From a virus: 20,300 nt of DNA. A program made the position numbers and the translations under genes. This document shows positions 5,801-20,300 of this stretch, piece by piece; the stretch's first letter is position 1; each line of letters starts with the position of its first letter. The stretch spans positions 1-20,300 of the IMG/VR virus record IMGVR_UViG_3300030090_006578. The stretch is one strand, 5' to 3'. The notes beneath the pieces were generated by a model. The model was not told where the DNA came from. It worked only from the letters and a program-made list of their open reading frames with translations, and ran no database searches.

Positions 5801-5904
5801 AAAACGTGCTTTATGCTAAGATTATGGTCAAACCAGCGAGAGCTATCGAATACATCGCAATTGACTTCGTAATCATGTCAACAGGAGCATCATTTGATGA
5901 CTAA
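2863..5904 (+). CDS. Tail sheath protein, T4 gp18-like, enlarged
   Basis: Contractile sheath subunit that polymerises around the tail tube and drives its penetration of the cell envelope on contraction. The N-terminus (SPGVFINEIDNSF, then IGAAVIGRSERG, residues about 10-40) is the classic sheath opening. The KNYWLGETFDQ stretch near residues 274-284 is also typical. Residues about 818-1013 form the conserved C-terminal domain, including GRGGLTDGAAG-like GFNRGGLTDG, NNINPIASFPSTGIVLFGQ, RINVRRLVIFLKK, and a closing beta strand IEYIAIDFVIMSTG. At 1013 residues it is much longer than T4 gp18 (659). The extra material, rich in Gly, Ser, Asp and Tyr, lies mainly between about residues 110 and 260 and between 470 and 800, where sheath proteins carry variable surface domains. 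It has a strong ribosome site and is followed by the tube gene after 64 bases. Confidence 0.92.
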   Translation: MSVKSFKFVSPGVFINEIDNSFIPKSAQAIGAAVIGRSERGLGMTPVKVESYSDYVRAFGDTQGGGGLAGGANDVYRDGNFTTAMYGTYAAQAYLRANVAPLTYVRLLGQQSTNNDSDGGAAGWKTYYDVSNWADDEDGGRFSTNGGAYGMWIFSSGSTVDCGTGSLAAVFYLEQGAVALNGTMRIASNGGPDSTDYAAADTVTSSTGVIIGSDSSGNFTLVFSGSSYAEDKISINFDDTSDNYIRKKINTNPTLVTASNGSNMDFYPGATEKNYWLGETFDQKIRDQGLAGVEAQAVILPLQNATGKGAHNMKGQASREAVAGWFIGQDLGAAASFVPFNQQKLFRLKGRGHGEWLHKNVKVSITNIKASTSKSRQYGSFSLLLRHISDTDSRVVTLERFDNCNLDPSSPNFIARKIGDKYLSWDDTERRLKEYGTYENRSEYVYVEMNPDVDAGVTDATLLPFGYFGPPKYRDIFQISGSGGQATAGDANHTDPYWKGLKNNSYITASSPDYGHNSDSTSAVNVISGAFAAALSKGGANTQLSDGAINSYTGSFTSGHVRLRLSASDGGLSNPTDAYFGMQTTRESGSTLYDHSVPDFHRLLYASFPDDPVAAGYYGTTGIEAWSYVFSLDDVVSKNTQQFYYLSGSRAREASYTTSSYENLLDAGYNAFTAPFWGGFDGLDIHYPDPFYNAGMSSNSTDDNDYAYYTLKRAIDTLADPEYVDMDLLTVPGLTLDNLTTHMVRVCEERADTLALIDLADVYLPFCEGSYTSRSTKASRVATTPDSAASALRDRDIDSSYGATFYPWVQTRDGLTGQMLWVPPTVAVLGVLASSQAATDVWFAPAGFNRGGLTDGAAGIPITGVTERLTSKQRDTLYENNINPIASFPSTGIVLFGQKTLQNDQSALDRINVRRLVIFLKKQISILSTQILFEQNVQSTWNRFIALIDPFLANVQTRFGITDYRLVLDDSTTTPDLIDQNVLYAKIMVKPARAIEYIAIDFVIMSTGASFDD

Positions 5905-5968
5905 AACAACGAATAAACATTTTGAGACACTAATTAAAATGTATCACGCATATAGGAGATTTTAGAAA
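5905..5968 (+). promoter_or_regulatory. Intergenic leader before tube gene, with ACTAATTA element
   Basis: The gap contains ACTAATTA at 5929-5936, preceded by TTTTGAGAC (5920-5928). The leader of the first gene has a similar TGAGA-ACTAATTA arrangement (48-60). The ribosome site AGGAGA (about 5954-5959) precedes the ATG. No hairpin is evident. A late promoter is possible but unproven. Confidence 0.3.
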
Positions 5969-6577
5969 ATGCCATTCTGGACAACTGATCACAGCGCAAA
6001 CGCGGAAATTAATGATCCAAAAAGAAAATTTAGATTTATTGTTACGCTCGATGGCGTTGACGTAGACGGCGGTCAAGCTTGGTTTGCTAAAACAGCCAAC
6101 AAGCCAAGCTTTACAATTGCCACAACTGAGCACAAGTATTTAAACCATACTTTTTACTATCCTGGTTCTGTTACCTGGAATGATGTTGAAATTACCCTTG
6201 TCGATCCGGTTGATCCTGATATGGTTGCAACGTTATCTGATATAGTTGAAAGATCGGGCTATGTTCTTCCTAATGCAGCCGGCGATTTGACCACTATGTC
6301 TAAGGCCAAAGCATCAAACGCATTAGGCGCTGTAACAGTAACACAGCTTAATTCTGATGGCGACGGCATCGAGACTTGGACTTTAAAAAACGCCTTCATA
6401 ATTGATTTAAAATTTGGCGACTTAGAATACGGATCAGATGATATTACCGAACTAAGTATGACTCTTAAATATGATTGGGCCACGTGCACGGTTGCCGACA
6501 CCGGCGGCTCTAAGGCTAAGAACGGAACAGCTGTTGGTGCTACTGATAAGTTCTTCGGTACCGTTGGTAACGTATAA
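5969..6577 (+). CDS. Tail tube protein, T4 gp19-like
   Basis: Major tail tube subunit that forms the rigid inner channel for DNA passage. It is 202 residues (T4 gp19: 163). It shows the usual beta-rich pattern: RKFRFIVTLDGVD near the N-terminus, KPSFTIATTEHKYLNHTFYYPG (residues about 49-70, read as two adjoining segments), SVTWNDVEITLVDP, and a C-terminal FIIDLKFGDLEYGSDDITEL followed by SMTLKYDWA. These match gp19/VgrG-like tube proteins in which the hairpin 'N..FYYPG..TW..I.LT.VD' is conserved. A Gly/Ala/Lys-rich tail follows residue about 175. Position between sheath and gp26/tape measure genes supports the call. Confidence 0.9.
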   Translation: MPFWTTDHSANAEINDPKRKFRFIVTLDGVDVDGGQAWFAKTANKPSFTIATTEHKYLNHTFYYPGSVTWNDVEITLVDPVDPDMVATLSDIVERSGYVLPNAAGDLTTMSKAKASNALGAVTVTQLNSDGDGIETWTLKNAFIIDLKFGDLEYGSDDITELSMTLKYDWATCTVADTGGSKAKNGTAVGATDKFFGTVGNV

Positions 6578-6600
6578 AACAAATTTGATAATTAAATAGA

Positions 6601-6606
6601 GAGGTG
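6601..6606 (+). promoter_or_regulatory. Ribosome binding site supporting a TTG start
   Basis: GAGGTG, with GAGG six bases before TTG at 6611, supports that TTG as the start of the gp26-like gene. The next in-frame ATG falls inside the conserved domain (near residue 67) and would delete the LPSKGKFYP signature. Confidence 0.6.
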
Positions 6607-6610
6607 TATA

Positions 6611-7471
6611 TTGTCAAGAAATAAAGATCGCACCGGAAACACCGGTCCTTCTCACGACACACCAATAATCCCCACAACTCAAGACACTACTAGTGATGGT
6701 GGATTTTCGTTTGTCGTGCCAACCGATTTTGTGGATTTGCCGTCCAAAGGCAAGTTTTATCCAGAACATCACCCACTACATAATGTCGATAGCTTAGAGC
6801 TGCGACAAATGACTGCAAAAGAAGAAGATTTGCTAACTTCTAAGACTCTTCTTAAAAAAGGTGTCGCAATTGATAGATTGCTGGAGAGCCTCATAGTCAA
6901 TAAAAAAGTTAAAGCCGATAGCCTGCTTGTTGGTGACAGAAATGCTTTAGTTATAGCCATTCGAATATCTGGCTATGGAGAGCAGTACACAACTCAAATT
7001 ACATGCCCATCATGCACGCATGTTCAAAACAAGACATTTAATCTTTTTGAGATTAAAACACAAAATGAAACAAACTTGTCTGCTCTTGATGTTATTGATA
7101 ATGGCGACGGCACTTTTACAACTCAGCTGCCAAAAACTAAATTAAATGTTAAGTTTGGTTTGCTTACTGGAAAGCATGAGAAAAATTTAATGTCTGGTAT
7201 GAAAATGGATAGACAAAACAATAAACATGAGAGAGCGATAACAAGGCATTTAAAAAATATTATTAGATCTGTTAATGATAATAGCTCAGCCGAAGCGCTC
7301 AATTACTTAATCCAACACATTCCATCGATGGATTCAAGACATTTACGTCTAGCTTATAAGTCCGCATCTCCTAACGTCGAACTTAGAGATATGTTTGTTT
7401 GCGAGAACTGTGATTTCGACCAGGAGATGGAGGTGCCGCTGACTGCGGACTTTTTTTGGCCTGACCGATGA
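6611..7471 (+). CDS. Baseplate hub / tail assembly protein, T4 gp26/gp51-type
   Basis: A 286-residue protein of the T4-type baseplate family usually annotated as gp26 or gp51 (hub assembly). The signature is clear: DFVDLPSKGKFYPEHHPL (residues about 38-56), LRQMTAKEEDLLTSKTLLKK, then LLVGDRNALVIAIRISGYG. Two Cys pairs, C132-P-S-C135 and C264-E-N-C267, could form a zinc-binding ribbon. It starts at TTG with a GAGG site. It sits between tube and tape measure genes, where most tailed phages have tail assembly chaperones made as a short and a frameshifted long form. The gene ends in DFFWPDR immediately after a run of seven T (7451-7457), from which a +1 or -2 shift would continue for 81 further codons in the next frame. 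Confidence 0.8.
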   Translation: MSRNKDRTGNTGPSHDTPIIPTTQDTTSDGGFSFVVPTDFVDLPSKGKFYPEHHPLHNVDSLELRQMTAKEEDLLTSKTLLKKGVAIDRLLESLIVNKKVKADSLLVGDRNALVIAIRISGYGEQYTTQITCPSCTHVQNKTFNLFEIKTQNETNLSALDVIDNGDGTFTTQLPKTKLNVKFGLLTGKHEKNLMSGMKMDRQNNKHERAITRHLKNIIRSVNDNSSAEALNYLIQHIPSMDSRHLRLAYKSASPNVELRDMFVCENCDFDQEMEVPLTADFFWPDR

Positions 7472-7703
7472 ATATTCAGAGTCTATATACGAACAATTTT
7501 TCTTTTTAAAGTATCATGGCGGTTGGTCTTTTGCAGAAGCATACAACTTGCCTGTGCCTTTAAGAGAATGGTTTGTAAAAAGACTAATTAAACAATTAAA
7601 AGATGAAAAAGAGGCCGCTCGCCAGGCAAGCAAAAGCCATGGCTCTAATTCACAAACATTAACTCCGTTTAATCAACCCCCGCCTCCTAAGATGATGGGT
7701 TGA
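7443..7703 (+). CDS. Small frame without canonical start; likely frameshift extension of gp26-like gene
   Basis: This open frame follows and overlaps the gp26-like gene in the +1 (equivalently -2) frame. It opens after a TGA at 7440-7442 and ends at TGA 7701-7703. Before its conserved-looking body (LTDEYSESIYEQFFFLKYHG, then WSFAEAYNLPVPLREWFVKR) it has no ATG, GTG or TTG; the first are TTG at 7548 and GTG at 7554, already mid-body, and ATG only at 7692. The body resembles the short proteins next to gp26 in other T4-like phages, with a 'YHG..s..e.y.mP...R.w...' pattern. Expression by ribosomal frameshift at the T7 run would give a fusion of about 363 residues (+1) or 364 (-2). Alternatives are initiation at CTG 7443 or CTG 7461. 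The C-terminus is Ser/Asn/Pro-rich. That this region codes is well supported; the expression route is inference. Confidence 0.65.
   Translation: MRTFFGLTDEYSESIYEQFFFLKYHGGWSFAEAYNLPVPLREWFVKRLIKQLKDEKEAARQASKSHGSNSQTLTPFNQPPPPKMMG
7451..7457 (+). other. Candidate programmed frameshift site (T7 run)
   Basis: The zero frame reads GAC TTT TTT TGG CCT GAC CGA TGA. A Phe-tRNA on TTT 7454-7456 can slip one base forward onto another TTT (7455-7457) with perfect re-pairing, continuing GGC CTG ACC GAT GAA. A two-base backward slip also re-pairs perfectly and adds one Phe. The zero-frame stop is only 12 bases past the run. Phage Mu uses a -2 shift and lambda and P2 use -1 shifts for their tail assembly chaperones. 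Confidence 0.5.
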
Positions 7704-7704
7704 T

Positions 7705-7730
7705 AAAAACGTTTGCTTTGCGTTTTTTTT
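7705..7730 (+). terminator. Possible weak terminator before tape measure gene
   Basis: AAAAACG (7705-7711) pairs with CGTTTTT (7721-7727) around a 9-base loop, and the T run continues to 7730. The stem has only two G-C pairs, so it is weak, and the A/T-rich arms may simply reflect composition. Its place directly after the TGA at 7701-7703 fits attenuation before the tape measure gene. Confidence 0.35.
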
Positions 7731-7735
7731 ATAAA

Positions 7736-7749
7736 ACTATTTACTTAAT
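7736..7749 (+). promoter_or_regulatory. ACTATTTACTTAAT element before tape measure gene
   Basis: This 14-mer differs at one base from 2807-2820 in the sheath leader and carries the ACTAWTTA core also seen at 53-60 and 5929-5936. It begins 31 bases before the ATG at 7767. TATAAAAC at 7730-7737 is also a partial match to the T4 late promoter TATAAATA. A promoter role is inferred. Confidence 0.3.
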
Positions 7750-7766
7750 ATACGTGAGGATTGTTG

Positions 7767-10583
7767 ATGGCTGATTTTGCCGATATTGTCAAAGCTATAA
7801 AAAATGCTAACGAGAGCGAAAAGAAAGCTCTTAGAAAGGCGCTCGGATCCGAAGGTGGCCCAGCCAAAGTAGATCCTTCTCAGGACTATAAAAAACAAGC
7901 TGAGGATCTTGAGGCATATATTAAAAAAATGGAGGCCTTGGGAAATTCTACTCAAGCCCAAGTTCTCAAAGCTCAGGCGATTGTTGAGCAGAAAGAACTA
8001 GAAGTAAGAGCAGCGCAACAGGCGATACAATTAGCGGAAAAGTTTGAGCCTCAATTAGCGAAAAATCTTGAGATAGCAATAAAAAATCTAGAAGCTGCAG
8101 AAAGCACGATCGCAGCGTTTGAAAAAACAGCTAGCAGAATACAAGAAAATAATGCCCATGCCAAAGCTTTTGGTAGCACACTAGTTGGTGCTATCGCTCC
8201 GTTTCAAAAGCTCAACTTTACCGGCACTCTTTTTGAGATTGGCCAAGGCTTTTTTAGCGCAAAAGAAGGCGCAAAAGACTTTTTTAAAGAATTAACTTTA
8301 GGGCTTATTGATTCAGTTGTCGGTGGGCTCTTCGATATGGCCATGCAATTGGATTCTATGGAATCCAATATTCAACGTGCTACAGGTGCCTCAAAGGAGT
8401 TCGCGCAAGGTATGGTTGATGGCTCAGATGCGATTGCACAATATTATGTCAGCACCGAAGAATTTGAAAAATCTGTAGTGGGCCTTTATGGAACGATGAC
8501 TGAATTTTCAGGACTTGAAAAAAGCTTGCAAATTCAATTAGCTGAAACTGCCTCAATATTAGGCAAATATGGAGTAAGCGCAGAGGAAATGGGCCAAGCA
8601 TTTCAATTTGCAAATAAAATTATGGGTCAGAGCGCTAGCCAAGCAGCAGCTACCGGTCGTGAAATAGCAGCTATGGCTATGGATATTGGCGTTCCTGTCG
8701 ATCAAATGATGCAAGACTTTAACACGATGATGCCAGAATTGGCTAAACTAGGGCCGACAGCGAGCGATTCGTTTAAAGCACTAGCGAGAGAGGCCAAAAA
8801 GTCAGGTCTTGAAGTCCAGAAGATTTTAAACTTAACAAATAAGTTTGATACGTTTGAAGACGCCGCAGAGATGACCGGTAAACTTAACGCTGCACTTGGC
8901 GGCAACTTTGTAAATGCGATGGATATGATGACAGCAACAGATCCAATTGAAAGATTTGAAATGTTAAAAGACTCACTTGATAATGCTGGATTAAGCTTTG
9001 ATGAGATGTCGTATTATCAAAGAAAGTTTTTTGCTGAGCAAATGGGTCTCGACAGCGTAGGTGATTTAGCTCTTATGATGAGTGGAAATATGAGCGGCCT
9101 TAAAGATGAAGTTGGAATGACATCTTCAGAATACGAAGAGATGGCAGAAAAAGCCGCAGAACAAGCAACTCTGCAAGAAAAATTCCAAGGAACGCTGCAG
9201 CAAATAATGAGAGATCTTATTGACTCTGGATTTTTAGAATATATTCACGAAATGTTTGACGAATTTAGAAAGTCTGGCGGTAAAGACGGAGTGATAGCAG
9301 ATTTTGTCGACACAGTAAAAGACATAGCAACCGTAATAAGAGACATGATATCGTCTGATTTGTTTAAGTGGATGGTTGAAAATATTGATTTAGTAATTTA
9401 TGGATTTATGACCTTCAAAGGTATTCAGATGGTTAGTTATGTTGGCTCCTTAGCCAAAGGCCTGAAAGGTCTTGTCAGCGGAATTGCGGGAGCAGCTGGC
9501 AAACTAAAGGGGCTTGCGAAAGGGGCCTCGGATGTTGCCGAAAATGTCACCAAAGCAACTGACGCTGCAGCAAATCTATCCGATGCGGGCAAGGAAATAG
9601 TCGACAGCGGCGCCGTTGATACTGTGAAAGATATGGCTGGAGGTGCTACAGATTTAGCAGATGCCGCACCAGAAGCTGCAGCTGGTCAACAACTTATGAA
9701 TGTGCAAACTGCCGAAACGGGCGTGGTCGCTAAAATTGCTTGGCCAGAAATTCTTGCTTTAGGCGGCGCCCTTCTTCTTATGGGCGCGGGTGTTTACTTA
9801 GCTGCTATCGGAATGGCTGAACTAGTTAGAGCTTTTGAGCCTTTTGAAGCAGCCGAAATTTTATCAATTTCCTTGGCTCTTCTTGTGTTTGGCGTAACAC
9901 TTGCAGGACTGGCCTATATTATGTTTGGAGCCCTGCCAGGATTAGCAGTAGCATATCCGGTTATTTTAGCGCTAGGGGGTGCATTTTTATTGATGGGCAT
10001 AGGAGTTGGTATTGCGGCATTCGGGCTTTCATACTTAGTTGATTCATTTGCGAATCTAAGCGCTGATAAAATTCTAGCGACCTCGGTTGCGTTCCTTAGT
10101 TTAGGTGCAAGCCTGTGGGGTTTAAGTTTAGCTCTTAATGCTCTGGGTAGTCCTTTGGCATTCTTAGGCTTGGCTGTGTTAACGGGCGTTGTGTTAATTT
10201 TGACAAACGCTATGGAAGACTTACTTACTATAATTGGCACTCTCGATGAAGGCGCACTTAAGCCTTTGGGGGCAATATTTGAAGCGATGGGGGGCGCTGA
10301 TACTAAAAATATTGAAACAGCTACCAAGCAATTTAAAGAAATTGCCAAAGTTTTAAAAGAAGATATGGCTGATGTTAGTGTAATAACAGAAATGACCGAA
10401 ATGCTAATTGAACTTAAAAATGCGGGCAACGTACTATCTAAAATGTCAACCAGACAAACTTCTAAAGAAAGAAGCGTTCAAATGACAATAACACTTGATG
10501 CTGCTGCAACCGATAGCTTGCTAAATGGAAAGACCGCCGAAGGCACAGCAATTTTGGCAGCAAAAGCGTATGGACAACAATAA
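7767..10583 (+). CDS. Tail tape measure protein
   Basis: Sets tail length by spanning the growing tube, and is probably ejected ahead of DNA. The start is ATG 7767, chosen over in-frame TTGs at 7761 and 7764 because GAGGA (7756-7760) is six bases upstream of the ATG; this gives 938 residues. Residues about 45-130 are a Gln/Ala/Lys-rich predicted coiled coil. The middle is helical and Met/Gly-rich. Residues about 560-660 are a Gly/Ala/Lys-rich linker. Residues about 657-817 are strongly hydrophobic, with several potential membrane-spanning helices arranged as two tandem 71-residue repeats (from residues 663 and 734). The C-terminus is charged. Size, helical make-up, hydrophobic late segments and position after the tube/chaperone genes all fit. 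At about 0.15 nm per residue the tail would be near 140 nm; that is an extrapolation. Confidence 0.88.
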   Translation: MADFADIVKAIKNANESEKKALRKALGSEGGPAKVDPSQDYKKQAEDLEAYIKKMEALGNSTQAQVLKAQAIVEQKELEVRAAQQAIQLAEKFEPQLAKNLEIAIKNLEAAESTIAAFEKTASRIQENNAHAKAFGSTLVGAIAPFQKLNFTGTLFEIGQGFFSAKEGAKDFFKELTLGLIDSVVGGLFDMAMQLDSMESNIQRATGASKEFAQGMVDGSDAIAQYYVSTEEFEKSVVGLYGTMTEFSGLEKSLQIQLAETASILGKYGVSAEEMGQAFQFANKIMGQSASQAAATGREIAAMAMDIGVPVDQMMQDFNTMMPELAKLGPTASDSFKALAREAKKSGLEVQKILNLTNKFDTFEDAAEMTGKLNAALGGNFVNAMDMMTATDPIERFEMLKDSLDNAGLSFDEMSYYQRKFFAEQMGLDSVGDLALMMSGNMSGLKDEVGMTSSEYEEMAEKAAEQATLQEKFQGTLQQIMRDLIDSGFLEYIHEMFDEFRKSGGKDGVIADFVDTVKDIATVIRDMISSDLFKWMVENIDLVIYGFMTFKGIQMVSYVGSLAKGLKGLVSGIAGAAGKLKGLAKGASDVAENVTKATDAAANLSDAGKEIVDSGAVDTVKDMAGGATDLADAAPEAAAGQQLMNVQTAETGVVAKIAWPEILALGGALLLMGAGVYLAAIGMAELVRAFEPFEAAEILSISLALLVFGVTLAGLAYIMFGALPGLAVAYPVILALGGAFLLMGIGVGIAAFGLSYLVDSFANLSADKILATSVAFLSLGASLWGLSLALNALGSPLAFLGLAVLTGVVLILTNAMEDLLTIIGTLDEGALKPLGAIFEAMGGADTKNIETATKQFKEIAKVLKEDMADVSVITEMTEMLIELKNAGNVLSKMSTRQTSKERSVQMTITLDAAATDSLLNGKTAEGTAILAAKAYGQQ
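9753..10178 (+). repeat. Tandem internal duplication in tape measure protein
   Basis: Two hydrophobic protein repeats of about 71 residues lie head to tail. Unit 1 (residues 663-733) begins LALGGALLLMGAGVYLAAIG; unit 2 (from residue 734) begins LALGGAFLLMGIGVGIAAFG. Both continue with a 'LV..F....A..IL..S.A.L..G..L.GL' pattern. The DNA copies have diverged, so the duplication is old and is visible mainly at protein level. The units would each supply two hydrophobic helices or hairpins. Confidence 0.7.
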
Positions 10584-10595
10584 GGAGATATGTAA

Positions 10596-11702
10596 ATGGC
10601 TGATAAAATAATTTTTGATGCTACAAAATTTGATAGAGCTAATGATGACGAAAACTATGGTTATTTTACTGATGGATCGGATGCATATGCTAATCGAGGA
10701 ATGGTTATTGGGTTTCATCACGTTCCAAGTGGTAAAGAAATTTATTTTAAAGCTGCACTTAGGGCCTATAACGAAAGCTATAATAGCGATTGGGTGAGTG
10801 AAGCCGTGTATGGTAGAGCAGATCCTATCAGGCTGTTCAAACAGACAGAAAGATCAATTTCTTTATCTTTTGTTGTGGCTGCGGCAAGCAAGGGAGAGGC
10901 TTTTGAAAATTTAGCAAAGGTTGGAGATTTAATTAAGTTTTTATATCCTTATTATTCTAACGTGGCTGATGCCACTACCATCGGACAGTCGCCTCTTGTT
11001 AGAATCAAGCTAATGAACCTTTTATCCAATACCCAAGGCTCAGGAACAAAATATTCAGGATTAAGCAAGTCTGGTAACTCATCTGCGGCTGAAGGACAAT
11101 TAGGGGCAATCACAAATATTGCAGTTAATCATAATTTAGAAAACAACGAATCTGGCGTTATTGAGGTTGGAGAAAAAGATAGCCCGGCTATAATATTGCC
11201 TAAATTAATTGAAATTAACTTAGATTTTAGCCCAATTCATGAAACCCCCCTTGGATGGGGGCCAGATTCTGAAACTACGTTCGGAAACCAAGTTAACGGC
11301 AGCGGATTTCCTTACGGTCTTGACCTAGAAGGCAGCAAAGCCAAAACTAGCAAATCACTTAAAGATATTCAAAACGAGAGCGCTAAATTGTTCGATCAGC
11401 GGATTGCAGCAATTGCAGCACTAGGTGCTTCTGACACCGATGATGGAGAAGATCCAGGCGAAGAGCCTGATCCCGATTCTGTAGCATCGGGCGATGCAGC
11501 ACTAGCAGGTGCCAAGGCGGATGCGGTGGAGGCCGCTATCCAAGGAATTACTCAGCCTGCCCGGCAATCATTGCCCATGGGAACGATGACTAGAGATGAA
11601 TACTACCTTGAATATCTAGGTCAAGGGTATGATTCGGATCTGGCAGAAGTATTGGCAGACGAGGCTGTTAGCGTGGATGTAAGCTCGTTGCTTGAAGAGT
11701 AA
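10596..11702 (+). CDS. Baseplate protein, possible tail-tube cap (gp48/gp54-like)
   Basis: A 368-residue protein directly after the tape measure gene, with AAGGAG overlapping the previous stop. ERSISLSFVVAAASKGEAFE with LIKFLYPYY (residues about 87-125) resembles T4 gp48 'TKVFTWDLTPRSTEDLMAI...IYQYFNYF'. GAITNIAVNHNLE ... PKLIEINLDFSPIHE (about 168-213) resembles the gp48/gp54 closing strands 'IQSIRFDKTP...PSTFTLEITMREI'. That layout suits a gp48/gp54-type protein that nucleates the tail tube on the baseplate. After about residue 255 comes a family-specific tail with an acidic linker (DTDDGEDPGEEPDPD, near 277-291) and a predicted helical end. The resemblance is short and remembered, so a different tube-initiator or hub-connecting baseplate protein is possible. 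Confidence 0.5.
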   Translation: MADKIIFDATKFDRANDDENYGYFTDGSDAYANRGMVIGFHHVPSGKEIYFKAALRAYNESYNSDWVSEAVYGRADPIRLFKQTERSISLSFVVAAASKGEAFENLAKVGDLIKFLYPYYSNVADATTIGQSPLVRIKLMNLLSNTQGSGTKYSGLSKSGNSSAAEGQLGAITNIAVNHNLENNESGVIEVGEKDSPAIILPKLIEINLDFSPIHETPLGWGPDSETTFGNQVNGSGFPYGLDLEGSKAKTSKSLKDIQNESAKLFDQRIAAIAALGASDTDDGEDPGEEPDPDSVASGDAALAGAKADAVEAAIQGITQPARQSLPMGTMTRDEYYLEYLGQGYDSDLAEVLADEAVSVDVSSLLEE

Positions 11703-11713
11703 GGAAGTTAAAA

Positions 11714-12043
11714 ATGAACAGATATACAAGAACTGCACAAGTTAATAACACAGGCACATACTATAAAGAGCTAAGACGAGGCCGTAGAAAGATTGTTCAC
11801 TACGATACGCCTGAATTGAAAAATCCTACTTTAGCCGATCGAGTCAAGCTCAAAACCACTACACACATATGGAGGTATGGTGATAGACTATACAAATTAG
11901 CTGATCAATATTACGGAAATCCAGAATATTGGTGGGTTATCGCTTGGTATAATGCAACTCCCACAGAGGCATCACTTAAAACAGGCCAAGTTATTCGCAT
12001 TCCTATAAATTTAATTGAGACGTTGACCGTACTCGGGGTTTGA
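11714..12043 (+). CDS. Small LysM-like baseplate wedge protein, gp53-like
   Basis: A 109-residue protein. Residues about 52-82 (YGDRLYKLADQYYGNPEYWW and then VIAWYN) combine the LysM pattern with the T4 gp53 segment 'RPEELANAIYGNPQLYWVLLMCN'. A closing strand, KTGQVIRIP (near 89-97), completes the LysM fold. Such small LysM proteins are widespread in contractile tails (T4 gp53, P2 gpX types), where they link hub and wedge parts rather than bind peptidoglycan. The N-terminal 50 residues are basic. The start has an AAGGAAG ribosome site that includes part of the preceding stop. It ends 3 bases before the next gene. It is much shorter than T4 gp53 (196). Confidence 0.75.
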   Translation: MNRYTRTAQVNNTGTYYKELRRGRRKIVHYDTPELKNPTLADRVKLKTTTHIWRYGDRLYKLADQYYGNPEYWWVIAWYNATPTEASLKTGQVIRIPINLIETLTVLGV

Positions 12044-12046
12044 TAA

Positions 12047-15000
12047 ATGGCTGACGAAGTAATTGAAAATTTAGCAGCTGCAGAAAAAGGTGTCGCAGAA
12101 AGTGTTGATGCGATGATCGAAAAATTGCCAGATTGTATGAAGAAGCTTCACCGAGACTGGGAGGCCCTGCAGACAGCTTGGGCCGATTGGAATGAATTGA
12201 TGCACGTAACATATAAAAAATCATCAAGCGGCACATCCAAATATATAGACAAATACAATTTTAAGCTTCACTGGCTTCCATTTAATAAAATGACAAGTTG
12301 GCTTTCTACAGGCATGGCTAATTTAACAGCACAAATGGGCAAAATGCCGTCAGCCTCCGATGTAGCGGGTCTTGAAAATCTCCCTAGCGGGCAAATAAAT
12401 AGCTATTGGGATACAATAAAAGCAGCAAATCATTATTCTGCGTTTGATTATTTAAATATCGCGATGCGCACTACGTCAGATTACTCTTGGAACTGCAAAG
12501 GAACTCTAGCGGGAGAGTTACAACCAAAACCAACTATTAATACGAGCCAACTTGGTAAACAAGTTGCAAATTCAGGCGGCGCCAATTCGTATTATATATA
12601 TAAGCCCGCCACAATTACTGCGGATTACTCAGATGTTGGATTCTCGTATGGTAGCGATTATCTTGGTACACACCCATATATGTGGTGGGAAGATCCGGTT
12701 ATGAAACTTTCAGTTTCTGAAGCAGGTGGGGGCACCGCGCTGACTCAAAAGCTCACAGAGCAAGTAAAAACAGACGGATGGGCCACTAGGACGCAATATT
12801 CGTGCGATGTGCTAAATAGTGTGATGTCCACCGCCGGCATGGTTCGGCACAAGTTTACCGAAACCGACAAAGAAGGCGGAGGAAAATGCCAGACAGGAAT
12901 GTCAAAAAAATGGGATTTCACGCGGCACAAGACAGGGGCATGCCATAACGTTTCAGAAAACCATCATACTAGTGAAAACGTCAACAACCCTACACATGCG
13001 CAATTCTCCACAATACATTTTTGGAAAACATACGTGGGCAGGTTCTTTAACTCTGAAGGTGCTTATAAAAAACTTACCGAAGAATCTAGCTATTATGCAA
13101 GCTCAGATCTTGATTCAGACCATACTTATTTGAGCCTTGCTGGCCTCAGTATGTGGGAAAACTCATGGATATTGCCGGCCTTTCTTATTGGCAATTTTAA
13201 TAAAATGGAGCCACTTTACTTTTTTTGCTCAAACGAAAAGCATGAACAAATGTATAACAGCTATAGCACTCGATATCGCATGGTGGAAGAATATGGAAAC
13301 TGCAATAATTACCTGCCGGGCTCTTTTTACAAACGCTCAGGCCCTGTATGGACAGAATACGATGCGAATGCGAACAGCAGAGGCCTGACTTCTTTCACAG
13401 GCGCCCATGCTTGGTTGAAATCAGGTTATACTTACGTTGGCCACGACGGTACCGGCGGCATTGGATCCTCTGGCGGTGTCTATAATGCAAATCGAATAGA
13501 ATTTGATCACGGGTACACATCTTTTAAGGATAAACCCTATGATGGTTTTGTTTTCGGCAAACAAGCTCAGTGGTTTAACAGAGATACTGGACAATATGAA
13601 AGTGGAGGCAAGTGGACCACCTCGCCGCTTGAAGATTTAGTTACAATATATTTTCAACTAAAAAAGGCGTTTTGGGACATGCGTGATTCTGTTGGGTGTA
13701 TTCTAAATTTAGACGTAGATATTTTAGAATCAAAAAGCGACTTAGCGCTAGTAGCAGATGATGTTGTTAATGATCCAAAAGCTACTTCTGATCAGAAAGA
13801 GAAAGCTAGAGAGGCTCTCAAGAATCTTAAAGAGACGGACGATGTTGCCAGGCTTTCTTCTACCTTCAATAAAAATTTAATTTTTCGCGAACAATGCTTT
13901 TTGATGGCCTATCTTCCAAATCTATCAAAATATCACAAAACCATAAGCGCTGCTGGTATTGCCGGCAAGCCTACCGAAATAACTGTTGCCAAAGCGGCAA
14001 TAACAGCAAAAGTCACTGATGAAGCGTTTGCTTTAATAGCAGAAGTAGACGAAGAGCTTGCACTAGTTGCCTCTGATTTGTCAGTAGGACCTACATACGT
14101 AGACGTTGCCGATGAGTACCTGGGAACAGGAGCCGGCGCCGCTGCTATCGCACAGAATCCCGCCCTTGTAGATGATGTTATGGGTAATGTTTTGGAAATG
14201 ACTTTAGGAGAAGGCACCGTCGACAAGCTCAAAAGTTTTGGAGTACCAGTTGAGATTGAATATCTCGGCACTATGGCAGAGGATATTGTAGAAAAAGAAA
14301 ACATTATCCATAGAAAGCCGTTGCCTACAAGCGACTCAAACGCCAGCATTTTACTGGACTCCAAAAGTCCGTATGCTTTTATGAATGCACTTGCGGTTGG
14401 CGGCACGCAAACATTTTTGCACAACTTATCGGTCGACGAAATATCAAACCTGCAGCCCATGATAAGCCTTTATAAAATTGAATTTGATCCAGAAACGAAC
14501 GAAGAAGTTCCCATTAAGCTAGTCTTTGATTCCTTCGCAAATACAAAAACACCACAACCTGTTGAAACATTACTGCAAAACAAAGACAAAAGAGGTTTTG
14601 GCACAGGTATACAATCCTTTAATTTTACGTATGCAGGTAGTAACCCGTTTGCAGTTAAAAAGAGCATTAGAGCTGAATTAAAGATTTTTTCAAACTCTTT
14701 TGATGAATTATTACAAATGCGCGACAACAAATATAGATACGTTGATTTGGCTCTTAAAACATCTAACACAGGCGTAGATTCAGCTTGTATTGATACCCAT
14801 CTTAATTTACAAAACGAAAATATGGCTAAATTAAACTTTAGGCTTAGAGCAATAGTTGGCTGGCAACTACCAGCTGGACAAAAATCTAGTAACTTTAGTT
14901 CGAATCTAACTAAGGCAATTGAAGATTCTTTTGTAACATTAAACTTGGTGCCTACTGTTCATGATTTTGATTTTGATGATATGGGCAGAGTTGTTTTTAC

Positions 15001-17056
15001 GATTAATTATCTTGCTTATATTGATGAATTTATGGATCAAAACGAGTTTGATATTTTTTCTGGAAACCACGAAGTAAAAATTAGTCAAACCGAAAGACGT
15101 TTAAGTTATAATAAACTCAAAAAAGCGTGCAAAAAAGACAAAATAAAATTATTGAAAGAAAAAAATATTTCTGCAATTGATGACGAAAAAAAATTATTAG
15201 TTAGCTCTTTAATGAAAGGTTTAATCGAACAAGATAAAGTATATTATATTAATCAAGATTACGATGAAATTAGAGACTTTGCGGCTGCAGGACCCTTTTT
15301 CTCAGCAGCCTCGACAGCACAGGTTATGACGAATGAAGAACTTAATCAATCTCTTGGGACCTCTATTGATAGCGCTTTACAGAAATATAGTACAATTAAT
15401 GCTGAGGACAGCCTTGATAAAGTGCGCGTGGGCTTGATGGCGGTTGATCCTAATCAGGTATCTATACCGTTTTTTTATGTTTCTGATTTGTTAGATTATA
15501 TTTTGCAAACTCTTTCTAAATCATTAAGAGAAATTGGCAATAAATTGTCTGCGAAAGTTGGCGTATCGCCAATTGATGTGAAAGAATATATCAGCGACAA
15601 AGAAGAGGCCCTTGAGAAAGCGAAAGAGACCCTGAAATCCCAGCAGCTCGCAGCAGCCGCCGCTGAGGTCATCCCAGAGAACCCTTTGGCTTCGGTTTCC
15701 ACACCAGATCTCGGGCTCAGCGACCTCACGCTTTCCGCTCTTCCAGGAAGCTCTTTGGCTTCAGTTTCCGCTGCTGGAAGCCTTGATCGAAGTCTCTTGC
15801 CTGAAGAACTGCGTTTTCCAGAATATGAATCTAGTTTAGATAGTGCGGCCGACAGCCTTACAACAACTACACCGGCCACAGAGAAGTTCAATACTGCGCT
15901 TGCAGGCCATACCAAAGCGAAAATTGAAGAAAAAGAGAAAGAACTAGAAACTTTAAAAACAAGAGAGGGGGCTGCAGAACTTGCGATCGCTAGACAAAAA
16001 GCTTCGGGTGGCGTTGGAGAAGGGTTTGATCCCTGCGAAATGATGGAAGAGGCTGTTAAATATAAAAGGTTGGCAAAAGAATTTTCAAAGTTTAGATTAG
16101 TATTGGGTCCGGTTGAAATTTTTGATGTTAAAAACGACATTTCAGCTCACACAATCAATATTGGAGATTTTCCAATATCAGTAAAATACTTTGTTGAGTT
16201 TTTAACTGAAAAGTTAGCTAAAAAGCAAGAGTCAACATATTCGATTGCCAATTTTTGTAACGATTTTTTCAATAACTTAATAAGAAACTTTTTAAATGAC
16301 GATTCGTGTTTTACCGGCGTCAATAGCTCACTAAAAGTATCCTTAAACGCTGCTTCTGTGACTGCTTATTCTACCGATAGCACTAGTGATACAATCACAC
16401 AATTAGCACGTAAGATTGATGCCAGAAGATTTACAATAGACCAAATCAAATCCAGTTCAAGAAGAATTTTAAACACGTCTGGCAATCGCGATTCTGACAC
16501 AGCTGCCGGATTTGCTAGCGAGTTTAATTATTTAATGTTCTTCGCCGGCAGAACAAAACCTACTACTGATATGAAGGGCAACAAATCTTCCGATTCGGCA
16601 AAAGGAATCATGCATTATGAGCTTGGTCGAGATAGAGGAATTGTAAAAAACATTAAATTAACAAAAACTCAAACACCGGGACTACAAGAAGTTAGATTTG
16701 AACAAGACGGTTATGATGGATTAAGGCAGCTTAGAGTTGTATACGATGTCAATATTGATACGTATGCTGATGTGCATGCGTATCCGGGAACATATATTTT
16801 TGTTAATCCCATCACATTTGCCCCTACCAGTAATCTGACGCCGTGCGATCCTATGAACTTGACTGAATATGGTATTGGCGGGTACTATATGATTGTTTCT
16901 TCGGAACATCAATTTGCACCGGGCACAGCTAACACTAAAATATTTGCTAAATGGGTGAACGAAATTTCTGGAAAAGGTCCAAAGTGTTCAGAGTTGGCCG
17001 GCGGAAAACGACTGAGGAAGTGTAAAGCAGGAGCTGATCCATTAAGAGGAGGATGA
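12047..17056 (+). CDS. Giant baseplate / hub structural protein (1669 aa)
   Basis: Probably the central baseplate protein. Three zones can be read. (1) Residues 1 to about 640: rich in Trp, Tyr, Ser, His and Cys (CDVLNS, GKCQTG, GACHNV, FFCSNE, GNCNNY), unlike anything I recognise. (2) Residues about 760-1005: SKSPYAFMNALAVGG, ISNLQPMISLYKIEFDPETN, and AELKIFSNSFDELLQMR with VDLALKTS, resembling the hub-type domains of marine T4-like phages. (3) Residues about 1338-1655: VLGPVEIFDVKN, QEVRFEQDGYDGLRQLRVVY, IFVNPITFAPTS, GIGGYYMIVSSEHQF, which read as a gp27/gpD-like hub strand set. Zones 2 and 3 are separated by an Ala/Ser/Leu-rich linker (about 1185-1252) of markedly higher GC and a coiled coil (about 1282-1325). 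The C-terminus is basic. It starts at ATG 12047 with a weak GGGG site, three bases after the previous gene. Confidence 0.6.
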   Translation: MADEVIENLAAAEKGVAESVDAMIEKLPDCMKKLHRDWEALQTAWADWNELMHVTYKKSSSGTSKYIDKYNFKLHWLPFNKMTSWLSTGMANLTAQMGKMPSASDVAGLENLPSGQINSYWDTIKAANHYSAFDYLNIAMRTTSDYSWNCKGTLAGELQPKPTINTSQLGKQVANSGGANSYYIYKPATITADYSDVGFSYGSDYLGTHPYMWWEDPVMKLSVSEAGGGTALTQKLTEQVKTDGWATRTQYSCDVLNSVMSTAGMVRHKFTETDKEGGGKCQTGMSKKWDFTRHKTGACHNVSENHHTSENVNNPTHAQFSTIHFWKTYVGRFFNSEGAYKKLTEESSYYASSDLDSDHTYLSLAGLSMWENSWILPAFLIGNFNKMEPLYFFCSNEKHEQMYNSYSTRYRMVEEYGNCNNYLPGSFYKRSGPVWTEYDANANSRGLTSFTGAHAWLKSGYTYVGHDGTGGIGSSGGVYNANRIEFDHGYTSFKDKPYDGFVFGKQAQWFNRDTGQYESGGKWTTSPLEDLVTIYFQLKKAFWDMRDSVGCILNLDVDILESKSDLALVADDVVNDPKATSDQKEKAREALKNLKETDDVARLSSTFNKNLIFREQCFLMAYLPNLSKYHKTISAAGIAGKPTEITVAKAAITAKVTDEAFALIAEVDEELALVASDLSVGPTYVDVADEYLGTGAGAAAIAQNPALVDDVMGNVLEMTLGEGTVDKLKSFGVPVEIEYLGTMAEDIVEKENIIHRKPLPTSDSNASILLDSKSPYAFMNALAVGGTQTFLHNLSVDEISNLQPMISLYKIEFDPETNEEVPIKLVFDSFANTKTPQPVETLLQNKDKRGFGTGIQSFNFTYAGSNPFAVKKSIRAELKIFSNSFDELLQMRDNKYRYVDLALKTSNTGVDSACIDTHLNLQNENMAKLNFRLRAIVGWQLPAGQKSSNFSSNLTKAIEDSFVTLNLVPTVHDFDFDDMGRVVFTINYLAYIDEFMDQNEFDIFSGNHEVKISQTERRLSYNKLKKACKKDKIKLLKEKNISAIDDEKKLLVSSLMKGLIEQDKVYYINQDYDEIRDFAAAGPFFSAASTAQVMTNEELNQSLGTSIDSALQKYSTINAEDSLDKVRVGLMAVDPNQVSIPFFYVSDLLDYILQTLSKSLREIGNKLSAKVGVSPIDVKEYISDKEEALEKAKETLKSQQLAAAAAEVIPENPLASVSTPDLGLSDLTLSALPGSSLASVSAAGSLDRSLLPEELRFPEYESSLDSAADSLTTTTPATEKFNTALAGHTKAKIEEKEKELETLKTREGAAELAIARQKASGGVGEGFDPCEMMEEAVKYKRLAKEFSKFRLVLGPVEIFDVKNDISAHTINIGDFPISVKYFVEFLTEKLAKKQESTYSIANFCNDFFNNLIRNFLNDDSCFTGVNSSLKVSLNAASVTAYSTDSTSDTITQLARKIDARRFTIDQIKSSSRRILNTSGNRDSDTAAGFASEFNYLMFFAGRTKPTTDMKGNKSSDSAKGIMHYELGRDRGIVKNIKLTKTQTPGLQEVRFEQDGYDGLRQLRVVYDVNIDTYADVHAYPGTYIFVNPITFAPTSNLTPCDPMNLTEYGIGGYYMIVSSEHQFAPGTANTKIFAKWVNEISGKGPKCSELAGGKRLRKCKAGADPLRGG
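15601..15780 (+). other. GC-rich, repeat-bearing linker inside giant baseplate gene
   Basis: Counting by hand, the three 60-base rows 15601-15780 contain 35, 35 and 34 G+C (about 58%), against 15 of 60 at 15481-15540 and 17 of 60 at 16201-16260. Within it CTTTGGCTTCGGTTTCC (15684-15700) recurs as CTTTGGCTTCAGTTTCC (15753-15769), in frame, 69 bases apart, encoding the repeated peptide (P/S)LASVS. It encodes an Ala/Ser/Leu/Pro-rich flexible segment. The reading frame is intact throughout. Confidence 0.7.
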
Positions 17057-17057
17057 A

Positions 17058-18305
17058 ATGGGGTTTTATAAAAAATCAAATGTAGATAAAGTATCCAATT
17101 TATATTATGAAAGATTTTTGTATACTGAATTTATGAAAGACTTAAATCAAAATAATATTATAAATTTTTATTTTGGAGAAAAATACTTGTTCGGAAGAAT
17201 CGATCACTATTCAACACCAATTGTGCTAAGAGATTTGAATTCTATGAAAAGCTTAAACAACCCAGCAGATACATCCTCTAAAGTTAGAGTCGTCAATTTT
17301 GTTGCAGATGCCTTTAATGATTTTAGTAAAGACTTTCAAAGATGTTTAATCAAAGGACAGATTAGCCCCTCAGACAAATACTTGTCGGAGATAAAAGTCT
17401 ACAAAGCCTATCAAAATCCATATCTTCTTTATAAAAAATACATTAAAGATTTTATCAATAGCATAGACAAATCAATAAAATCTGACAATATTCTTTTTAA
17501 AGATTTCGATCGGTTCGCTAATATATTTATTGATATTTTAACTAGAGGCGAGGGCGTATCTCGATATCCGTTTACGACATCTGCGTATATAAAAAGCCGG
17601 CTATGCCCGATGAACGTATCTGGGCTTGTTATTGAAATTGCTGACGAAAGCTTTTCTGATGACGATAATAAAGTTGAACAATTTGTCAAAAGCCCAAACT
17701 TTCAATTTTACTTACAAGCTTGCAACAATCACGGTTTCATGGTCGATATGAATGCGCCATGGCGAATGGTTGCTGACATAGGAACACCCGTCATGCGCGC
17801 CCGCGCTGCTGAATATAGCCTTACGAAGCCAAATAATCCAGTCGGCTTTTTAATATCATCGTTTTATGTTAATGAATACAGCAACTGTTATGATAAGTTT
17901 AAAAGACATCTTTATCAAATTTATAATTTAACAAAGCCAACCGCAATTCCAATCACTAATTATTGTGAAAATGGTGTTAGAAAAACAACGCTTTCGTATC
18001 CTGTTTCCTACGGAACGTATGAAAATTTTTTGTTAAAAGTTCCAGAAGAGCAGTTGCTAGAGATGTATTTTATGGTTAGATTTTACGAAGAGGAGTCTCA
18101 TTTTTCTGATGTTGAAAAGAAACACTTGATGAGGGAATTAATTAAATATTATCGCGCCAATAGATTAAGCACCACTTTGTTTATTTTTGAAAGAATTTTA
18201 AATAAAACATTTGACTATGTGGGCTCAATAACGTATATTATTAAGAACAGCGAACAACACGAAGAAGAGGCTAGCCAAGCCGGAATTATTGGAGGTGGTT
18301 ATTGA
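17058..18305 (+). CDS. Unrecognised phage protein, possibly virion-associated
   Basis: I do not recognise this 415-residue protein. It is rich in Tyr, Phe, Lys and Asn, with no signal peptide or membrane segment. Notable segments are YYERFLYTEFMKDLNQNNII and FYFGEKYLFGRIDHYSTPIV near the N-terminus, PFTTSAYIKSRLCPMNVSGL (about 173-192) followed by an acidic stretch, NFQFYLQACNNHGFMVDMNA then PWRMVADIGTP (about 214-245), and a helical C-terminus ending in a Gly-rich tail (GIIGGGY). The strong GAGGAGG site (17046-17052) overlaps the end of the baseplate gene, and the polymerase gene overlaps its stop by 4 bases. Position suggests a baseplate or tail-associated component, but the neighbour downstream is enzymatic, so the role is open. 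Confidence 0.55.
   Translation: MGFYKKSNVDKVSNLYYERFLYTEFMKDLNQNNIINFYFGEKYLFGRIDHYSTPIVLRDLNSMKSLNNPADTSSKVRVVNFVADAFNDFSKDFQRCLIKGQISPSDKYLSEIKVYKAYQNPYLLYKKYIKDFINSIDKSIKSDNILFKDFDRFANIFIDILTRGEGVSRYPFTTSAYIKSRLCPMNVSGLVIEIADESFSDDDNKVEQFVKSPNFQFYLQACNNHGFMVDMNAPWRMVADIGTPVMRARAAEYSLTKPNNPVGFLISSFYVNEYSNCYDKFKRHLYQIYNLTKPTAIPITNYCENGVRKTTLSYPVSYGTYENFLLKVPEEQLLEMYFMVRFYEEESHFSDVEKKHLMRELIKYYRANRLSTTLFIFERILNKTFDYVGSITYIIKNSEQHEEEASQAGIIGGGY
18291..18295 (+). promoter_or_regulatory. Ribosome binding site supporting a TTG start of the polymerase
   Basis: GGAGG lies six bases before TTG 18302, which overlaps the previous stop as TTGA. This is a standard coupling arrangement and makes TTG the likely start. 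Confidence 0.6.
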
Positions 18306-19477
18306 TATTCCAGGCACTTGACGACAAGTCAGAATGTATTGGAATTTATGCTGACGGCAAATTGTCGTTTGAAAATTTTCCAGAAAATTTAACAAAGACG
18401 TGGCGCTACAGCGCATCCATCACAGATCCATCGGTAGAGTACGCCTGGATACGCGCTGGAGGGCGCAATATTACCGATTGCTGCCCTGAAGATTTATGTA
18501 ATGAACTTCAGGCTACAATAAGAAAAATGAAGGCTTATTTAAAGTCATTTAAGATTGCCAAGGTCAATATGGCTGACCATTGCGTGTTTGATTTGATTCC
18601 TCACGATTTTCTTGTGCAGTTCTGCGAGATTAAAAATAAAATTACAGAACATGTGTTTGAAACCTACGAAAAGCCAAACAATTACGAACACCTAGATGGC
18701 GTTTACAAGCTTCTTCATAAGATCCGTTATCAGAAATTAAATCTTAACAGCGATGATTGCAAGCATTTGTTTTATTCTTCGATGAATCGTCAAAAGATTC
18801 AAGAATTAATGAAAAACTATAGACGTATTGATTATAATATGTTCGGGACTGTCACAGGTAGGCTGTCTACTCATCCTGAGTCATTTCCTATATTGAACAT
18901 CAAAAAAGATTTGCGCCGACTTATCAAGCCTCATAATGACTTAATGATGAGCCTTGATTATAATGGAGCCGAGATCCGCACGCTGTTAGATTTGTGCGGT
19001 CAGCAGCAGCCTGAATATGACATTCATGAATGGAATGTACAGAACGTCATTAACGATCTTACGATGACGCGAGAAGAGGCAAAGTTATATTTCTTTGCAT
19101 GGCTTTATAATCCTGAATCAAACGATATTGAATCAAGCTACTATGATCGTGAAAAAGTTCTTGACAAATATTATAAAAACGGATACATTCACACACCATA
19201 CGGGCGCAAAATCAAGGTGGAACAGAGAAAGGCTTTGAATTACTTAATCCAAAGTACAACTGCAGATCGCGTGCTAGAAAAAGCTGTGTTGATTGATAAA
19301 ATGCTTGAGGGCAAAAAGTCATTTATTTCACATATTGTTCATGATGAAATTGTAATTGATTATAGTGATGAGGAGCGCAATATGGTAATCGGTATCCGAG
19401 ATATTTTTGAAGATGGCTACTTGGCTAATGTGCGAGCCGGTAAAGATTATTACAATTTAAATGAGTTAAAGTTATGA
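18302..19477 (+). CDS. Minimal family A DNA polymerase (palm/fingers only)
   Basis: Template-directed DNA polymerase of the Pol I (A) family, by motif. TGRLS (185-189) precedes the NIKKDLRRLIKP stretch. Motif A is D219-YNGA-E224-IR, matching DYSQIELR with catalytic Asp and steric-gate Glu. Motif B is R257-EEA-K261-LYF-F265-AWL-Y269, matching the spacing of Pol I R754, K758, F762 and Y766. TPYGRK and Q317-STTAD follow; motif C is H347-D348-E349. All catalytic positions are kept. At 391 residues it is far shorter than a Klenow fragment (about 605): the finger helices after motif B are cut down (about 78 residues to motif C rather than about 115). The first 180 residues show no recognisable 3'-5' exonuclease motifs. 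It starts at TTG with GGAGG six bases upstream, overlapping the previous stop by 4 bases, and its own stop overlaps the next ATG. An exonuclease could be encoded elsewhere as a split polymerase. Confidence 0.82.
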   Translation: MIFQALDDKSECIGIYADGKLSFENFPENLTKTWRYSASITDPSVEYAWIRAGGRNITDCCPEDLCNELQATIRKMKAYLKSFKIAKVNMADHCVFDLIPHDFLVQFCEIKNKITEHVFETYEKPNNYEHLDGVYKLLHKIRYQKLNLNSDDCKHLFYSSMNRQKIQELMKNYRRIDYNMFGTVTGRLSTHPESFPILNIKKDLRRLIKPHNDLMMSLDYNGAEIRTLLDLCGQQQPEYDIHEWNVQNVINDLTMTREEAKLYFFAWLYNPESNDIESSYYDREKVLDKYYKNGYIHTPYGRKIKVEQRKALNYLIQSTTADRVLEKAVLIDKMLEGKKSFISHIVHDEIVIDYSDEERNMVIGIRDIFEDGYLANVRAGKDYYNLNELKL

Positions 19478-20300
19478 TTTCGATCGTTGGTCTTGGTAAC
19501 GCTGCATCGCGTATTGCTGAGAAATTTAAGCAAACAAAAAACTATAATGTTTATCTATTGAATAGTGATATTGAAAGAAAAACAAAGTATAAATTTAAAC
19601 TTAAATCTTTCGAAACTCCTGAAGAGTATGAAGAGAACATTCCAGACGTTAAGAAATTTTTTCAAAATATAGATGAACACATACAGTTTATAATCGTTGG
19701 CTCCTCTTATAGTTCAAACTATTCGCTCGGTGTTCTTGAACAGCTGAAAGACAAAAAAGTAGATGTTTTCTATGTTCAGCCTGATACTGAACTGATGACA
19801 GGCATACCGAAGCTTTTAGATAAGGTCGTATTTAGCATCTTGCAGGAGTATGCACGCTCAGGGTTGTTGAATTCATTTACTGCAATTTCAAACGCTATGG
19901 TAGAAAAGTCTATTGGAAATATTCCAATCAAAACTTACTATGAAAAGATAAACGAATCTATCTTTTCTACAATTCATTATATTAATTATTTTAATCATGC
20001 AGAGCCAGAGATAGGGATGACCTCCAAGCCGCTTGAAATAAATCGCATTAGGACTTATGGGATTTTAAATGTAAAAAATCTTCAAGAAAAATGGCTTTTT
20101 GAGCTTGACATGGAGCGCGACCTGTGTTATTATTTATGTATCAATAAGGACAGATTAGAAAACGAAGGAGGATTGCATAAAAAAATTGTTGATATGCTTA
20201 AAAGTAAACCAAAAAATGCATTTCGACGTATATCTTATGCAATTTATGAAACAGAATATAAAGATTTTGGGCTTTGCGTTGCCCACACTAACGCAATTCA
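19474..20300 (+). CDS. Partial gene: possible tubulin/FtsZ-like nucleotide-binding protein
   Basis: The gene starts at ATG 19474, overlapping the polymerase stop as ATGA, and stays open to the window edge (275 codons seen). It opens with a beta strand and Gly loop, MISIVGLGNAASRIAEKF, then YNVYLLNSD, as in FtsZ (GVGG.G.NA..., then 'aiNTD'). After an acidic stretch comes FIIVGSSYSSNYSLGVLEQL and then VDVFYVQPDTELMTG, at the place of the FtsZ GGGTGTG loop and the following 'vvTkPF.fEG'. FTAISNAMVE (N140) and YYEKINESIFSTIHYI then resemble the T6 loop and helix H7. The glycine signature itself is not kept, so GTPase activity is uncertain. A generic Rossmann-fold protein is the main alternative. 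The family link is inference from layout, not a search. Confidence 0.4.
   Translation, partial: MISIVGLGNAASRIAEKFKQTKNYNVYLLNSDIERKTKYKFKLKSFETPEEYEENIPDVKKFFQNIDEHIQFIIVGSSYSSNYSLGVLEQLKDKKVDVFYVQPDTELMTGIPKLLDKVVFSILQEYARSGLLNSFTAISNAMVEKSIGNIPIKTYYEKINESIFSTIHYINYFNHAEPEIGMTSKPLEINRIRTYGILNVKNLQEKWLFELDMERDLCYYLCINKDRLENEGGLHKKIVDMLKSKPKNAFRRISYAIYETEYKDFGLCVAHTNAI

Follow-up and report, generated by a model that had tools for sequence, protein, structure and literature searches.

A compact family A DNA polymerase at the head of a phage replication module, a probable accessory gap-filling enzyme of uncultured marine phages with T4-like tails

The gene at 18302..19477 (plus strand) encodes a compact family A DNA polymerase, hereafter PolA (391 aa, TTG start), and it is the first gene of a replication module, not the end of the tail genes that precede it. 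The window, that is, the whole stretch analysed, is a complete 20.3-kb IMG/VR record and a linear fragment. We consider it probable that PolA is an accessory polymerase of the divPolA1 type (Yutin et al. 2024, Virol J 21:200; PMC11348598) in a large lineage of uncultured marine phages with T4-like tails, in which DnaE is the replicase and PolA would fill gaps together with a separately encoded 5'-3' exonuclease, FEN. The family is kept in 140 examined relatives.

The open reading frame is intact, stops at 19477, and is preceded by a ribosome-binding site, GGAGG, at 18291..18295 (plus strand), 6 nt before the TTG. Pfam DNA_pol_A (PF00476) matches the product (49.4 bits, cut-off 34.3, E = 4e-13), PHROG assignment places it in PHROG 17, DNA polymerase, and a PDB profile search matches Taq at 1e-10. 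Alignment with E. coli Pol I locates the active site, all on the plus strand. Motif A, D219-Y-N-G-A-E224 (18956..18973), holds the catalytic Asp and the steric-gate Glu (D219=D705, E224=E710). Motif B, the O-helix (19070..19108), corresponds residue by residue (R257=R754, K261=K758, F265=F762, Y269=Y766) and forms a helix at 257-268 in the AlphaFold2 model. The Q-helix, N313-x3-Q317-x4-D322 (19238..19267), supplies Q317=Q849, and motif C, H347-D348-E349 (19340..19348), corresponds to H881-D882-E883. A TGR motif at residues 185-187 (18854..18862), in the primer/template contact region of Pol I, is invariant in a 36-sequence alignment. The original prediction of a 391-residue family A polymerase with intact motifs A, B and C is thus borne out, and so is the compression of thumb and fingers that it described: 38 residues separate motifs A and B versus 49 in E. 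coli Pol I, 48 separate the motif B Tyr from the Gln versus 83, and approximately 184 precede the TGR motif versus approximately 343 in the Klenow fragment. Structure prediction, proposed as a check, agrees. The AlphaFold2 model, built on 36 relatives, has a pLDDT of 92.4 and a pTM of 0.90, and Foldseek returns Pol I large fragments (E ~1e-11, probability 1.00). Only about 100 residues precede the thumb helices in this model, and a Pfam scan of the protein found no 3'-5' exonuclease domain, in line with what had been noted. The protein is the polymerase core only, lacking the FEN and 3'-5' exonuclease domains of full bacterial Pol I (PolA1). We conclude that it is a genuine family A polymerase with a Pol I-like palm, short fingers and a truncated thumb. 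It is minimal and apparently enzymatically active, and it is apparently not the replicase.

PolA is a conserved family, not a fragment. A first scan of IMG/VR gave 99 relatives and a profile scan at least 545. Across the 140 loci examined, which include 110 distinct proteins, PolA length ranges from 389 to 415 aa. R187 of the TGR motif is invariant in 110/110 of these proteins, as are the active-site residues, except that S replaces E349 in 3 proteins and N313 in 2. An N-terminal motif outside the active site, FQxxDDKxxCxG, is likewise invariant in the family. Near pairs give a dN/dS of 0.018-0.034, a ratio that is approximate with dS near saturation. We rejected a broken or truncated gene because of the 140 intact relatives and a dN/dS of about 0.02, and a host or prophage origin because no relative could be confirmed among 84,980 bacterial and archaeal species genomes. 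Many uncultured aquatic phages carry a compact PolA besides their main replication polymerase.

Upstream of PolA, the window contains T4-like tail genes (2863..17056, plus strand), consisting of sheath (2863-5904), tube (5969-6577), baseplate (6611-7471) and then large unknown tail-side proteins up to 17056. The sheath, at 1013 aa, is above the usual T4-like size, and at most about half of it aligns with known phage sheaths. The 1669-aa tail-side protein at 12047-17056 is without a known domain and has relatives of about 880 to 1770 aa. The last tail-side gene (17058..18305, plus strand) encodes 415 aa of unassigned function, with no Pfam family and no convincing PHROG. It lies directly before PolA, is present in 113/113 loci with room for it, and its stop overlaps the PolA start. 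PolA had been placed inside a tail gene cluster; it does adjoin the tail side, but it sits at the boundary, where it starts the replication genes.

Because the window ends one gene after PolA, the rest of the genome was judged from relatives, and the module downstream of the window is inferred from relatives with 43-93% identity. Where contigs reach, the tail-side genes and the 415-aa unknown are followed by PolA, an FtsZ-fold protein (TubL), a gp32-type SSB, RecA, FEN, DnaB and NrdJ, and DnaE completes the module. SSB is found downstream of PolA in 89/89 and RecA in 39/39 loci with room, then FEN, DnaB and NrdJ; FEN has a gene of its own, about 3-10 kb beyond PolA. In the longest relative, G001 (195.7 kb, linear), Pfam identifies gp32, RecA, UvdE, 5_3_exonuc, DnaB and DnaE, along with a class II RNR, Cpn60, ClpP, IMPDH and an SbcCD-like protein. 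Its region 114548-130248 (L089) brings together Cpn60, two ClpP-like proteases, IMP dehydrogenase and DnaE. Another, at 34713-51458 (L084, L085), carries apparent sugar-nucleotide, glycosyltransferase and methyltransferase genes, assigned by eye from ORF starts and possibly concerned with surface polysaccharide. The UV-damage endonuclease UvdE (Pfam 2e-57) lies between RecA and FEN at 137825-138817 of G001 (L090 4825-5817); its presence in 12 relatives suggests an optional light-repair gene. UV repair as the main role of PolA was rejected, since UvdE occurs in only these 12 relatives as against 54 with both RecA and FEN.

The sequence comparisons indicate that the replicase of the window lineage is a family C enzyme, DnaE. 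It was found in 12/20 long contigs, and the remaining 8 break off 1-13 kb past PolA, short of or near the point at which DnaE would be expected. All 12 contigs that reach far enough thus carry it (12/12); the window itself ends earlier. The DnaE of this lineage aligns with Thermus DnaE at E = 1e-104. The original prediction had called for a search for a second polymerase and had expected a family B replicase elsewhere in the genome, but Pol B (PF00136) occurs in 0/17 relatives, and we rejected it for the window lineage. A second Pol A was also not found in 17 relatives, and the long Pol A of Flavobacterium phage immuto shows no specific kinship to the compact one (hhalign E 0.04), which argues against PolA being the broken paralogue of a full-length enzyme. 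The parallel search for a separate 3'-5' exonuclease, of PolA type (PF01612) or DnaQ/RNase_T type (PF00929), found none in 13 relatives, among them records of 196 and 136 kb. Searches for a ligase found neither an ATP-dependent one in 13 relatives nor an NAD-dependent one in 7. RM378, considered as a model for a split Pol A, was rejected because its record gave no match to Pol A and instead carries a 532-aa frame of family B.

Comparison of tail sheaths led to two cultured phages, Microcystis phage Mel-JY01 and Flavobacterium phage immuto, in each of which a compact PolA occupies this boundary and precedes SSB-RecA-FEN-DnaB. The arrangement recurs in 80 IMG/VR loci, as far as the loci reach. 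In Mel-JY01 the protein is WWT39333.1, annotated 'hypothetical protein', 408 aa (L166 22398-23624; PP395634.1 50397-51623). It scores below the Pfam DNA_pol_A thresholds and aligns with the window clade by hhalign at E = 1.7e-9. We judged kinship of the Pol A palms by profile comparison instead of a tree, as about 200 alignable residues at 25% identity leave a tree unable to resolve it. The window clade profile matches the immuto compact PolA (MW353175-MW353177) at E = 7e-12 over 281 columns, Mel at 6e-9, E. coli Pol I at 2e-9 and T7 at 1e-6, and the Mel and immuto compact profiles match each other at 2e-32. On position and this moderate profile match, the compact enzymes of the two clades are probably orthologous. 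D228, D365, K267, F271, Y275 and Q334 are invariant in 60 sequences of the Mel clade, both metal-binding Asp included (60/60), and the Mel/immuto sister clade likewise retains K758, F762, Y766 and Q849 of Pol I. Four positions are replaced, E710->H, R754->Y, H881->Y and E883->A, invariantly within the 60 and in common with immuto; because of these changes, canonical dNTP selection may be dispensable for the function common to both clades. In Mel-JY01, the interval from compact PolA to SSB holds a 428-aa protein (L166 24406-25692) matching S-adenosylmethionine lyase (Pfam 4e-10), a family of phage anti-restriction proteins. Replicases differ by lineage: Pol B in Mel (6/7 records searched), DnaE in the window lineage and, in immuto, a long exonuclease-bearing Pol A. 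The replication module stays fixed while the main replicase swaps among families A, B and C, and PolA marks its start. An accessory polymerase kept through replicase exchanges points to a task beyond the replicase's ability.

Judged from its neighbours, the most likely role of PolA is proofreading-free gap filling with the separate FEN, and among the options in the original prediction gap filling would also be the likeliest. In bacteria, gaps at Okazaki fragments are filled by Pol I, and species that lack the canonical enzyme almost always have a stand-alone FEN (PMC12926913). PolA would be made early and would fill short gaps behind the fork, relieving DnaE at RNA primers or at excision or recombination gaps. 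FEN would remove the 5' flap or primer, so that the two proteins jointly might stand in for the polymerase and 5' nuclease domains of single-chain bacterial Pol I. The nick could then be sealed by the host ligase, which we propose because no phage ligase was found. The gap-filling reading is weakened by the active-site replacements in the sister clade and by the missing ligase, and a function in recombination or priming would be expected to produce identical traces.

Such a role, in which forks would be started by PolA extending short primers or the D-loops made by RecA, DnaE would then take over, and Okazaki gaps would not be the main task of PolA, is a possibility to be taken seriously, though clearly the less probable one. 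SSB and RecA are the nearest known neighbours of PolA, and T4-type phages use recombination-dependent replication (PMC7824862). The sister clade's changes at the steric gate and among the dNTP-binding residues suggest a special substrate, and for divPolA2, another divergent form, Yutin et al. consider a repair role or an RNA polymerase (PMC11348598). However, the module also includes FEN and DnaB, the window clade retains the canonical steric-gate Glu and all dNTP ligands, and PolA has no priming domain.

The gene directly after PolA raises a further alternative. TubL (19474..20298, plus strand, cut by the contig end) is a predicted FtsZ/tubulin-fold protein with degenerate GTP-binding loops, as judged by AlphaFold2 (pLDDT 91), Foldseek (a TM as high as 0.75 with B. 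subtilis FtsZ) and motif conservation. It has no Pfam or PHROG match and no tblastn match in 50,697 phage records. The PolA stop overlaps the TubL start by 4 nt (ATGA) in 138/140 loci. This overlap, the active-site side chains replaced in the sister clade, and the invariant N-terminal motif away from the active site would all suit a PolA that acts as a scaffold and has no need of catalysis, for instance one that binds the translationally coupled FtsZ-fold protein. We find that unlikely, as the catalytic residues are nearly invariant in 110 proteins with a dN/dS of ~0.02, the sister clade retains both metal-binding Asp, and in the sister-clade genomes examined the next positions after compact PolA hold other genes, not an FtsZ-fold gene. 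More tentatively than gap filling itself, and with considerable doubt, it could be speculated that PolA and the co-translated TubL join in a single complex, in which a filament or scaffold would hold the gap-filling polymerase while it finishes the lagging strand behind the DnaE fork with FEN, SSB and RecA. If true, a DNA polymerase would here have a tubulin-fold partner of its own.

A polymerase linked to tails, packaging or end processing and expressed with late genes had been suggested. In its favor, PolA adjoins the tail side, and the preceding tail-side gene overlaps it, stop codon on start codon. The main evidence against it comes from sigma-70 promoters. Within the end of the upstream 415-aa gene, a consensus match of the sigma-70 type, TTGACT-17-TATATT, lies at 18211..18239 (plus strand; -35 at 18211-18216, -10 at 18234-18239). 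A single consensus match means little, and a plain sigma-70 scan of the window is no richer than shuffles; the case rests on recurrence at varying distances in divergent relatives. We scored upstream 120-nt regions for TTGACA-(16-18)-TATAAT with at least 10/12 matches, using one sequence per 80%-identity cluster. Sites precede PolA in 39/46, SSB in 41/45, DnaB in 19/19, FEN in 7/25, RecA in 8/35 and TubL in 1/48 regions. On the tail side, they were found in 0/17 (tape-measure-like), 0/23 (g149), 0/24 (up1425) and 1/39 (up415), a total of 1/103 regions. The background is 1-4% in shuffles (3.5% for PolA) and 9.3% in windows inside two coding sequences. A T4 late promoter, TATAAATA, was not enriched before PolA or the tail genes. 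The expression signal of PolA in the window lineage thus appears early-type. The argument is limited to the window clade, since the compact PolA of the Mel-type sister clade has a promoter in 7/49 and is not enriched. The strict downstream partners of PolA are replication genes, and in cultured immuto and Mel-JY01 the SSB-RecA-FEN-DnaB series likewise comes after PolA. With an early-type promoter at the head of this module, the proposed coupling to late tail genes or packaging has very little left in its favor.

Hardly any probability remains for PolA as half of a split proofreading polymerase, another suggestion made at the outset: such splits are known in phages, e.g., a split Pol III core (PMC7824862), and PolA has no exonuclease domain, but neither a DNA_pol_A_exo1 nor an RNase_T/DnaQ protein was found in 13 relatives of up to 196 kb, where a very divergent exonuclease could escape detection. 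The one respect in which Pol I is split here is that FEN has its own gene. Equally remote is PolA as the main genome replicase with DnaE for repair, for although it heads the replication module and Yutin et al. find the context of the regular polymerases less telling (PMC11348598), PolA is compact, without proofreading and truncated in the thumb, and every contig that extends far enough holds a full-length DnaE, with a full Pol B or long Pol A in its place in related lineages.

Among known systems, the window lineage differs from the T4-type family B replicase system in having no gp43-like polymerase (PF00136 in 0/17 relatives). It shares with bacterial Pol I, Klenow and Taq the palm, motifs A, B and C, the O-helix and the dNTP-binding residues; unlike them, its PolA is about 60 residues shorter in palm and fingers, has a reduced thumb and no 3'-5' exonuclease, and leaves FEN to a separate gene. 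A Pol A this small and exonuclease-free may be of interest to enzyme engineers. Like divPolA2 of the barbaviruses, it is an accessory Pol A without exonuclease encoded beside another replicase, but as described by Yutin et al., divPolA2 has a different N-terminal domain and a variable gene neighbourhood (PMC11348598). Mel-JY01 WWT39333.1 occupies the same position before SSB-RecA-FEN-DnaB-NrdJ, yet falls below the Pfam threshold, has altered motifs and is accompanied by a Pol B replicase.

The closest system is divPolA1, described by Yutin et al. from 14 phages, including immuto, as having a catalytic palm, a truncated thumb and an inactivated exonuclease with all three catalytic Asp replaced. 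The same paper gives these phages a regular Pol A, B or C elsewhere with chaperonin genes near it, conserved replication genes downstream of divPolA1, and genomes of 155-190 kb (PMC11348598). The window clade agrees with that description in the palm and truncated thumb of its compact PolA, in which no exonuclease domain was found, in the regular replicase besides it and in the replication genes downstream, and as with GroEL in the regular-polymerase region, Cpn60 lies at 114548-116125 of G001, ~11 kb from DnaE. It departs from immuto in keeping the canonical E710/R754/H881/E883, where immuto has H/Y/Y/A, and in having the FtsZ-fold gene directly after PolA. By sequence, then, we assign the window protein to divPolA1; the comparison was with immuto, and the three GOV records of the paper may be its nearest published relatives. 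What appears new beyond the text of that paper available to us is the evidence on promoters, the FtsZ-fold gene in strict coupling, the division into two motif clades and the size of the marine DnaE lineage. divPolA1 is thereby extended from the 14 published genomes to hundreds of environmental contigs, and its two clades, separated by active-site residues, make its function testable.
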